A stretch of 64,000 bases of DNA from Tepidisphaeraceae bacterium (GTDB lineage: Bacteria; Planctomycetota; Phycisphaerae; Tepidisphaerales; Tepidisphaeraceae), in contig DASYHQ010000018.1 of assembly GCA_035998445.1 (NCBI GenBank), forward strand, positions 496,001 to 560,000, written 5' to 3'. The first letter of the stretch is position 1. Every line of letters starts with the position of its first letter. A program made the position numbers and the translations under genes. The notes under the pieces are model-generated. The model was not told the origin of the DNA. It saw nothing but the letters and a program-made list of their open reading frames with translations, and ran no database searches. Below are positions 7,936 through 53,189 of this stretch, in pieces.

Positions 7936-8000
7936 AGAAATGCCGAATGCCCATTGCCGAATTCCGAAATGGAAGACGAGATGGCAGCGGCATAGACAAG

Positions 8001-8102
8001 CATTCGGCATTCGGCATTCGGCATTCGGCATTCGGCATTCGGCATTCGGCATTCGGCATTCGGCATTCGGCATTCGGCATTCGGCATTCGGCATTCGGCA
8101 TT
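8001..8102. repeat. 7-bp tandem repeat GGCATTC, about 14 copies
   Basis: 102 bp of uninterrupted GGCATTC units (13 complete plus flanking partials) ending 5 bases before the lptG ATG at 8108. Inverted partial copies (GAATGCC, ATGCCGAATGC) lie just upstream at about 7938-7967, so the array can fold back on them. No frame through the array contains a stop, and 7 is not a multiple of 3, so copy number changes the reading frame. It occupies the space where the lptG ribosome-binding site should be. Confidence 0.97.
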
Positions 8103-47883: not shown

Positions 47884-47965
47884 GGAGTGGACGCGGCACT
47901 CTTCTTCAATACCCTCTCAGGATGACGAACCGCGCGACACGCTCGCCAAGCAACTAAACAGGTGC

Positions 47966-48061: not shown

Positions 48062-48718
48062 CTACCCCTCCCCACTCCCCGGCGACACGTTCGCCTGGAA
48101 CGACAGCTGCTCCAACTGCACCGCCAAATCCACCGCGTTCAGCGCCACGGTCGGCGGGACGGTGATCGTGGCCGGGGCGAAGTTCAGGATGCCGTGGATG
48201 CCGGATTCGACCAGTTGGTCCGCCACGTCCTGCGCCACGTCGCCCGGCACGGCCAATATCGCCAGCCGGATGTTTAACCGCCCCACCGTCTCCCGCAGTT
48301 CAGATAGTGGCTGAATGATCAGATCGTCGTGCGTCTTCCCCACCTTGGCCGCATCTGCGTCGAAGATGGCGACGAGCCTAAAACCCTTGTTGTTGAACCC
48401 CCGGTACGACGCCAGCGCCCGGCCGAGGTTGCCGAAGCCCACCAGCATCACGTTCCAGGTCTTGTCCGTCCCCAGGATGTGCTTCACCTGCACGATGAGG
48501 TCGTCCACCCGATAACCAATGCCGGGATGCCCGAACTGCCCGAAGTAGGCCAGATCTTTTCGGACCTGGGCATCGGTCAGGCCCAAACTTTCCCCGAGTT
48601 GCTTGCTGGAGATGGTGCGCCGGTCCTTGCGCCCGAAGGCCTCCAGTTGGCGCAGGTACAGACTAAGCCGGCGGATGGCGGGGTTCGGGATTCCTTCCGG
48701 CGATCGGGGCGACTCCAT
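48062..48718 (-). CDS. rex: Redox-sensing transcriptional repressor Rex
   Basis: 218 residues, the usual Rex size. An N-terminal winged helix (about 10-80: AIRRLSLYLRQLEAF, TISSKQLGESLGLTDAQVRK, YFGQFGHPGIGY) precedes an NAD(H)-binding Rossmann domain (VGFGNLGRALASY near 95). Rex represses anaerobic and respiratory genes when NAD exceeds NADH. The ATG at 48718 matches the family start; the longer frame is rejected. It is divergent from the 21-bp palindrome array at 48861, about 140 bp from its start. No known Rex target gene is next to it. Confidence 0.93.
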   Translation of the reverse strand: MESPRSPEGIPNPAIRRLSLYLRQLEAFGRKDRRTISSKQLGESLGLTDAQVRKDLAYFGQFGHPGIGYRVDDLIVQVKHILGTDKTWNVMLVGFGNLGRALASYRGFNNKGFRLVAIFDADAAKVGKTHDDLIIQPLSELRETVGRLNIRLAILAVPGDVAQDVADQLVESGIHGILNFAPATITVPPTVALNAVDLAVQLEQLSFQANVSPGSGEG

Positions 48719-48860
48719 GCAGCTCCTATATATAGTGGCGGTCGGTCCGATTATTTCCGCATTACCCGTCCGGAACAAGGCGCACGCCACGACACTTTTA
48801 CGCGGCGAGCCCTGCGCACGGAAGGCTTTTAACGCGAGATCAGTCAAGAAACGTGCCTCT

Positions 48861-49154
48861 ATGAGCACTGCGGAAGCTTCTGCGCATCGTTTGGAAGCTT
48901 CTGCACGCCGTTTGGACGCGTCCGCGCGGGGTTTGGACGCGTCCGCGCGAGGTTTGGACGCGTCCGCGCGCAGTTCGGACGCGTCCGCAGGCCGTTTCGA
49001 AGCTTCGGCGCACCCCGCGGAAGCTTCCGCCCGCCGTGCCGAACCTCTGGCGGCACCCGCCGAAGCTCTGGCAGCCCGCGCCGAAGGTTATTCAGATCGT
49101 GGGGAAGCGCCCTCAGGCCGTGAGGATATTGCTGCCGATCTCAGAGGGTGTTAA
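48861..49154 (+). CDS. ORF of degenerate heptads (xxLDASA), uncertain protein
   Basis: 97 codons from the ATG at 48861 that divide into about 13 seven-residue units: STAEASA, HRLEASA, RRLDASA, RGLDASA (twice), RSSDASA, GRFEASA, HPAEASA, RRAEPLA and weaker ones to the end. No signal peptide or membrane segment. As a protein it would be an Ala/Arg-rich helix with acidic residues at fixed positions. There is no clear Shine-Dalgarno. The DNA under it is an array of 21-bp units with 8-bp palindromes, so the reading frame may be a by-product of a DNA-level array. Coding status is open. Confidence 0.4.
   Translation: MSTAEASAHRLEASARRLDASARGLDASARGLDASARSSDASAGRFEASAHPAEASARRAEPLAAPAEALAARAEGYSDRGEAPSGREDIAADLRGC
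48873..49027. repeat. Eight 8-bp palindromes at exact 21-bp pitch
   Basis: GAAGCTTC at 48873, 48894, 48999 and 49020, and GACGCGTC at 48915, 48936, 48957 and 48978, each start 21 bp after the last. The linkers are GC-rich and similar (TGCGCATCGTTTG, CGCGCGAGGTTTG). The two palindrome forms differ at two mirror positions at once, so symmetry is kept. 21 bp is two helical turns, so all sites face one side of the helix. It lies upstream of rex on the divergent side. Confidence 0.95.
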
Positions 49155-49410
49155 AGAACGACGCCGAGCTCGGTTTTCACCGTAGCATGGGCGGCTCGCC
49201 CATGGCGTCGGTACGCCGACGCGTCGGATGGTCCGCCATCCGAATCAGCCATCGCGCCAGCGAAGGAACGGCCTGAACTCTCTCAAGAGCGGATCGCTTG
49301 CGCTCGTTACTTCGGGCCGAGTACGGCCCGACACCGCGGGGTACCGCGGCTCCACGGGCGGGCCGCCCGTGCCACGTGGAGCGAACACGAGCAGGTTCTT
49401 TAACACCCTC
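49144..49410. repeat. Nested inverted repeat related to family A, copy 12
   Basis: The outer arms AGAGGGTGTTAAAGAAC (49144) and GTTCTTTAACACCCTCT (about 49393) are a 17-bp perfect inverted pair. Inside lie CATGGGCGGCTCGCCCATG near 49186 and CACGGGCGGGCCGCCCGTG near 49354. Between them, CGGATGGTCCGCCATCCG is another palindrome. The rest of the gap to 49679 shows no gene. Confidence 0.75.
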
Positions 49411-49679
49411 TCACGAATGCCTCCTCAGTCGCCGCCGCCGGGGGAAGCGATCGCGCGCAAACGTGCGGGGGCGACCGCCCCAAGCGGTCGGCGCGATGTC
49501 GTGCAGCTATCGGACCTTAGCGAACATAAACCCCGTCGGTGGGCCGAGGAAATCTTGACACCCTGCGCCCCCACGGTTACGGTGCCGAATGACACTTAGA
49601 TAGCGGCGGACAATAGTCGGTAGGGCCGGCTGCACGAGGCTGGCGGCAACGCATCCATCACACCCCGGAGATACGCCTG

Positions 49680-52373: not shown

Positions 52374-53189
52374 ATGCAGTCGTCCCCTCAATCGATCATG
52401 GAAGCACTCGAGCCGCGCCGTCTGATGGCGGCCACGGTTGAGGGGCTGCGCGTGCTGATCATCACCGCCGACGACACGCCGACCACGGTCGACATCAACG
52501 TCGTGAGCCGGACGACCTTTACGCTGACGATCGACGGTGGCGCGCCGGTCGACTATTCGCTGCGCCGCGTGCGCGGCGTGCGGTTCTTCGGTGGCGCCGG
52601 GGACGACGTCTTCCGCATCAATTCCCTGGCCACCGACCCCGCCAATGGCATCCGCCGCGCCGTGCTGTTCAACCGCAAGGCGGTCATCTGGGGCGGCGAC
52701 GGCAACGACACGATCTACGACGGGTACGGCAACTCGCGCATCAACGGTGGGCTCGGCAACGACACGATCTACGGGGGCGGTGGGTCGGACAACATCGTCG
52801 GCTCGGCCGGTGACGACATCATCTTCGGTGGCCCGCGCGACACCGAGCCCAGCCTGCGCGACGGCAATGACGTGATCTTCGGTGGCTCCGGCAACGATAC
52901 GATCGATGGTGGCCGTGGCAACGACGTGATGTTCGGCCAGGACGGGGACGACATCCTCATCGGCAGCACCAGCCGCGACGCGCTCTACGGCAACGCCGGC
53001 AACGACACGCTGATCGGCGGCCCCGATCGCGACATCCTCTATGCCGGTGGCCAGGACGGCGACATCCTCCAAGACGTCCAGGATCGCGACCGTGCGAACC
53101 GCGGTGAGCTGAAAGGCATGACGCTCTACCTGTCCCGCATCGTCCGCGCCTACGTGCCGGCCGCCATGCAGGCCGACGCCCGCCTGTAG
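52374..53189 (+). CDS. LEPR-XLL protein with RTX-type calcium-binding repeats
   Basis: 271 residues. The N-terminus has the LEPR-XLL signal EALEPRRLMAA (about 10-20), typical of exported planctomycete proteins. A small beta domain (about 25-85) is followed by seven or more GGxGxDxL/I-type nonapeptides (GGDGNDTIYDG, GGLGNDTIYGG, GGRGNDVMFGQ, GNAGNDTLIGG), which fold as a calcium-filled beta roll. Likely cell-surface or secreted. GGAG lies 8 bases before the ATG at 52374; a GTG at 52359 is less suitable. Confidence 0.85.
   Translation: MQSSPQSIMEALEPRRLMAATVEGLRVLIITADDTPTTVDINVVSRTTFTLTIDGGAPVDYSLRRVRGVRFFGGAGDDVFRINSLATDPANGIRRAVLFNRKAVIWGGDGNDTIYDGYGNSRINGGLGNDTIYGGGGSDNIVGSAGDDIIFGGPRDTEPSLRDGNDVIFGGSGNDTIDGGRGNDVMFGQDGDDILIGSTSRDALYGNAGNDTLIGGPDRDILYAGGQDGDILQDVQDRDRANRGELKGMTLYLSRIVRAYVPAAMQADARL

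Follow-up and report, generated by a model that had tools for sequence, protein, structure and literature searches.

A tandem array of symmetric 21-bp units beside rex points to a genome-wide class of repeats in a Tepidisphaeraceae bacterium

A run of short palindromes lies beside the rex gene of a Tepidisphaeraceae bacterium, and an open reading frame of heptads passes through it. As 21 bp corresponds to two turns of the helix as well as to seven codons, the locus raises the question of whether its regularity belongs to the DNA, to an encoded peptide, or to the way in which repeats multiply. The window analysed is a stretch of 64,000 nucleotides of contig 18; positions without a contig prefix refer to this window. 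Eight palindromes at exactly 21-bp spacing had been reported in the first-pass annotation, and this was confirmed by the motif positions, by the autocorrelation at lag 21 (z 11.8) and by Tandem Repeats Finder, which calls the same array. From 48873 to 49027, four copies of GAAGCTTC and four of GACGCGTC follow one another, each starting exactly 21 bp after the previous one. The general form GAMGCKTC occurs 19 times in the whole window (about 10 expected), and eight of these 19 copies stand in perfect register within one 155-bp stretch. Beyond 49027 the same pitch continues more weakly until about 49125, and the last five units have no intact palindrome. The features of the locus are as follows.

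48873..48880, no strand: palindrome 1, GAAGCTTC (motif positions)
48894..48901, no strand: palindrome 2, GAAGCTTC (motif positions)
48915..48922, no strand: palindrome 3, GACGCGTC (motif positions)
48936..48943, no strand: palindrome 4, GACGCGTC (motif positions)
48957..48964, no strand: palindrome 5, GACGCGTC (motif positions)
48978..48985, no strand: palindrome 6, GACGCGTC (motif positions)
48999..49006, no strand: palindrome 7, GAAGCTTC (motif positions)
49020..49027, no strand: palindrome 8, GAAGCTTC (motif positions)
48853..49125, no strand: full array of 21-bp pitch, 13 units by its own profile (autocorrelation and profile extension)
48861..49154, plus strand: open frame of heptads, 97 codons, putative peptide (ORF, ATG to TAA)

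The bases that distinguish the two palindromes had been described as covarying. The A/C and T/G changes are indeed paired at mirror positions; the four GACGCGTC units are contiguous, so that this covariation amounts to about one block event and not to four independent ones. The proposed link to rex was not supported. The gene, on the minus strand, starts at 48718, which is 155 bp away from the first palindrome; its family was confirmed by Pfam/NCBIfam. Nothing resembling the Rex operator TTGTGA-N6-TCACAA was found in the rex region with up to three mismatches allowed, and the array is absent upstream of rex at the rex loci of relatives; regulation by Rex was therefore rejected. One relative carries a different 21-bp array downstream of its rex gene. 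The other neighbours of the array are a 380-aa ORF without a Pfam match and, further along, an argC-like gene. Straight after the array, a MITE-like stretch of 269 bp (49143-49411) has a perfect inverted repeat of 17 bp at its ends, AGAGGGTGTTAAAGAAC and GTTCTTTAACACCCTCT; the heptad ORF terminates within its left arm, and a similar end is present near 47900.

When the genome was searched with the heptad peptide, matches turned up elsewhere, several of them interrupted by stops; they proved to lie in further 21-bp arrays whose cores are quite unlike the one beside rex, such as GATGCATC on contig 5 and GGAAGTTCCGTGCAC on contig 61. Subsequently, 1.61 Mb (28%) of the 5.84-Mb genome was scanned by lag autocorrelation. 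Contig 18 was sampled solely because the window lies there, and the other contigs were chosen for having matches. In this sample, 30 regions were found at lag 21, six at lag 20, two at lag 22, two each at lags 18 and 24, and one or none at lags 19 and 23. After three coding or period-7 cases had been dropped, 28 arrays of exactly 21-bp pitch were kept; a few more have a pitch of 20, 22 or 41 bp, and other pitches are rare. Contig 18 holds 10 arrays in its 671 kb besides the one next to rex; extrapolated to the whole genome, this density gives about ninety arrays. The rex-side stretch thus points to a genome-wide class of short tandem symmetric arrays, of which it is one member.

The arrays typically comprise 7-21 units, homogeneous in the centre and degenerate at the edges. 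The core sequence is private to most of them, and only a few arrays are paralogous. Adjacent units of the 28 arrays differ at 31% of sites, and 296 of the 304 steps between units are exactly 21 bp, so that spacing is kept far better than sequence, in a set whose detection is biased toward arrays without indels. The dinucleotide TpA is depleted in the arrays (observed/expected 0.28; other intergenic DNA 0.62, genes 0.47). Two paralogous arrays of 20-bp pitch with GCGCCGGATAATATTTGGAG as their unit were found at C18:80881-81340 and C18:179114-179713, with 23 and 30 units, respectively; the former runs into a copy of a 21-bp family with a shared flank.

The second common property is symmetry. Tested against column permutation, 25 of 31 array consensuses were strand-symmetric at p<0.05 (combined p about 3e-35); of 15 controls, which had other periods or came from coding regions, three were. 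The 20-, 22- and 41-bp arrays behaved like the class (4/5 symmetric). As the whole 21-bp unit is symmetric, dyads recur every 10.5 bp. Some arrays (C61:147638, C18:611881, and C5:104243) switch strand in register midway, which a symmetric site would tolerate, and the paralogous arrays with a common flank have either GTGCAAGTGCAC or GTGGTGGACCAC as inner 12-mer, both symmetric. Within arrays the signal is modest: the excess of mirror pairs is +82 (null 1.2, sd 18.3; slid mirrors from -45 to +45), and 122 double changes are complementary against 104 expected (sd 8), a weak compensation. A search for a base code common to the dyads across arrays yielded weak AT/GC preferences and nothing stronger.

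Known domains of a CDP-alcohol phosphatidyltransferase, a lipoyl-synthase-like and a polA gene start just after an array, which suggests that the apparent ORFs running through these arrays are upstream extensions. By crude gene calls, 10 arrays lie between divergent and four between convergent genes (background 65 and 75), a weak preference. A dispersed hairpin repeat of about 80 bp lies beside arrays: the flanks of 13 of 33 arrays contain CGGGTGCC, as do 3 of 276 intergenic windows elsewhere (p 9e-12). Copies of this repeat begin with CGGGTGCCACGG (C18:132667, C18:586596, C33:9568, C61:67542, and others), and its arms covary among copies (TTTGGTACGCCAAG, GCGGTACGCCGC). Sites of CGGGTGCCAC within 300 bp of an array number 14 of 37 in the 1.61 Mb. 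Furthermore, a flank of about 100 bp is common to five paralogous arrays; no convincing copy of it was found in 60 relatives. At C18:611881-613005, a RAYT-like gene (Y1_Tnp 612437-612622) stands between a strand-flipping 21-bp array and a GACGCGTAAGCGACGG repeat spaced at 41 bp.

Judged against a thin sample of relatives, the class is concentrated in the source genome. In eight genomes of the same family (about 0.8 Mb sampled) three such arrays were found, none of them significantly symmetric. In 1.31 Mb around the rex genes of other planctomycetes and of other phyla, no 21-bp array that looked non-coding was detected.

Pitch, symmetry, multiplicity, the absence of a coding signature across the class and its concentration in one lineage are the observations to be explained. 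Our preferred reading, held tentatively and at somewhat less than an even chance, is that the arrays are phased series of symmetric DNA sites for a putative homodimeric DNA-binding protein, which would act cooperatively to mark or organise intergenic DNA. With 21 bp, at times 20 or 22, the unit spans two helical turns; it is mirror-symmetric end to end, and its dyads, 10.5 bp apart, would all lie on one face of the helix. Each unit would seat one homodimer, the fixed two-turn spacing would let neighbouring dimers stack along that face, and the stacked complex would mark or organise intergenic DNA, often near gene starts, where it may affect the genes. The binder may be a single protein that reads shape or a set of sequence-specific ones. 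A pitch better kept than sequence, together with mirror symmetry, is what is expected of symmetric dimers placed on one DNA face at two-turn spacing. Of the DNA-level reading in the first-pass annotation, the helix-phased symmetric array is supported, and a further 27 arrays of 21 bp in the sampled sequence share its pitch and mirror symmetry, mostly with a different sequence and without codon phase; the bound protein stays putative. Several results count against the preferred reading. Most cores differ between arrays, which is odd for one sequence-specific binder; in addition, compensation within arrays is modest, the orientation preference is weak, and the three arrays of the relatives are not significantly symmetric. 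A special form of it, in which the roughly ninety arrays would be read by pitch and symmetry, that is, by shape, as docking sites for a putative filament-forming or chromatin-like dimeric protein, appears rather improbable to us.

The strongest rival is that the arrays are selfish or neutral palindromic minisatellites without a selected function, a possibility that we take seriously while giving it clearly less than an even chance. In single-stranded DNA the near-palindromic 21-nt unit would fold into a hairpin with a stem of 9 bp and a loop of 3 nt; replication slippage and template switching would multiply the units, perfect the palindromes and flip segments, and mobile hairpin elements would spread the copies. 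Units with exactly this stem and loop exist (C18:657156, C5:147005), and the in-register strand flips are consistent with template switching. The homogeneous centres and degenerate edges, the weak compensation inside arrays and the concentration in one lineage agree with it as well, as do the hairpin repeat that adjoins the arrays and the shared flank of the five paralogous copies. It leaves unexplained why pitches of 17-19 or 23-25 are nearly absent next to the 21-bp one, and why so few indels occurred over about 300 junctions at the observed divergence, unless the pitch was inherited from one ancestor.

That the arrays encode small heptad-repeat proteins, helical peptides in which the palindromes arise from codon choice, is unlikely, and the class as a whole is not accounted for in this way, although two or three arrays look peptide-like. 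The heptad ORF that had been reported through the rex-side array is present and reads, for example, LDASARG; it is the only open frame of that array, has Glu/Asp in all 13 heptads, including those of the last five units, where the palindrome is lost, and varies most at third codon positions (d3 0.40; permutation p 0.07). Thus, the protein alternative retains some ground for this copy and fails for the class, which has no codon phase. Peptide-like as well are the array at C61:306060, with one open frame of EFRESFRNIKKGLK-like heptads, and that at C33:125267, which is DEIHSSR-like, runs from ATG to TAG and is not symmetric (p 0.57). Taken over all open frames, however, the third position shows no extra variation (mean d3 -0.01, se 0.02). 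Stops interrupt all six frames in two arrays, more than one frame is open in many, and heptads are incompatible with the pitches of 20, 22 and 41 bp. More open frames were counted in the arrays than in column-shuffled ones (87 versus 60, sd 5.4), but this excess tracks the general depletion of TpA; stop avoidance was rejected as a sign of coding because TpA is scarce in non-stop triplets also. The frame at 48861-49154 had no match in Pfam or NCBIfam, and no homologue in the 60 relatives apart from two weak matches, neither of which is a 21-bp array. The remaining two readings are both very improbable. A transcribed array could fold into a series of small hairpins that influence termination or the stability of the mRNA, as symmetric units are able to pair in RNA and several arrays lie just before start codons; G-T pairs at mirror positions show no excess that would correspond to G-U pairing (610 compared with 617 expected), strands flip within arrays, and the rex-side locus had no match in Rfam. 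Alternatively, phased intrinsic curvature could be functional by itself, with no bound dimer. The arrays are doubled in AAA/TTT as well as depleted in TpA, and about ten are predicted from wedge parameters to be strongly curved; predicted curvature varies widely, and for the rex-side array it ranks within the lowest few per cent of intergenic pieces. Curvature was therefore rejected as a feature common to the class. Regarding single loci, C61:306060-306332, a 21-bp array with a single frame of amphipathic heptads (EFRESFRNIKKGLKDIREGF), is the best candidate for a real heptad peptide.

Known repeat systems resemble the arrays in part. In the parC centromeres of plasmid ParMRC systems, ParR of pSK41 binds 20-bp repeats and ParR of R1 binds 11-bp repeats, and ParR dimers stack on the tandem repeats into a solenoid (PMC9426499). 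Both kinds of repeat are intergenic and tandem with a period of about one or two helical turns, here at an exact pitch of 21 bp. The pSK41 case is a precedent by analogy for the two-turn geometry of the binding that we propose here. A plasmid has a single parC beside parM/parR, whereas an estimated ninety arrays with many unrelated cores are spread over this genome, and such a number argues against a parC-type centromere. REP/BIME elements, which are associated with RAYT transposases (PMC3733652), fall into families whose members are similar sequences of 20-40 bp tagged with GTAG or CGTC. They share with the arrays that they are multi-copy, intergenic and palindromic; RAYT genes are present in the genome (eight Y1_Tnp matches, of which the one at C18:612437 has an array on either side), and many arrays have hairpin repeats next to them. 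However, no single tagged family was found here: the GAAGCTTC units carry no GTAG/CGTC tag, cores differ in most arrays, and sequence changes between arrays while the pitch is fixed and the units are head-to-tail in register. The TAACTGA heptamers of Beggiatoaceae and cyanobacteria are intergenic direct repeats without a known function there (PMC4679880). They likewise form many tandem sets, often upstream of start codons and sporadic in distribution, but use one heptamer throughout, whereas the 21-bp unit here is symmetric and different in most arrays.

CRISPR and TIGR arrays combine a conserved core and a more variable stretch at fixed pitch. The present arrays are similar in their fixed-pitch core with a variable part and in the flank of about 100 bp on one side of some of them; they differ in that cores change between arrays and the variable segments are mutually similar and symmetric. 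No description of 21-bp or two-turn palindromic arrays that matches was found in the open-access literature, which is a part of the whole literature. The arrays point to a class of repeated DNA that has so far been uncharacterised.

Repeat families are usually defined by sequence, whereas here the invariant is a geometry of two helical turns and mirror symmetry. If proteins bind, the arrays would constitute a chromosomal code of spacing and dyads in a poorly studied phylum, the Planctomycetota. If none bind, they offer a clean natural example of palindromic satellites whose unit length is quantised, something that any model of replication slippage would have to explain. In either case, an open frame through a 21-bp array should not by itself lead to annotation as a heptad protein.

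Two further repeats were noted in the window. At 8000-8102, GCATTCG is repeated 14.7 times with zero mismatches; more arrays of period 7 occur elsewhere in the genome, where they are separate from the 21-bp arrays and not symmetric. At 52699-53090, coding repeats of period 27 and 30 (GNDTIYDG-like) are possibly of the RTX calcium-binding type.
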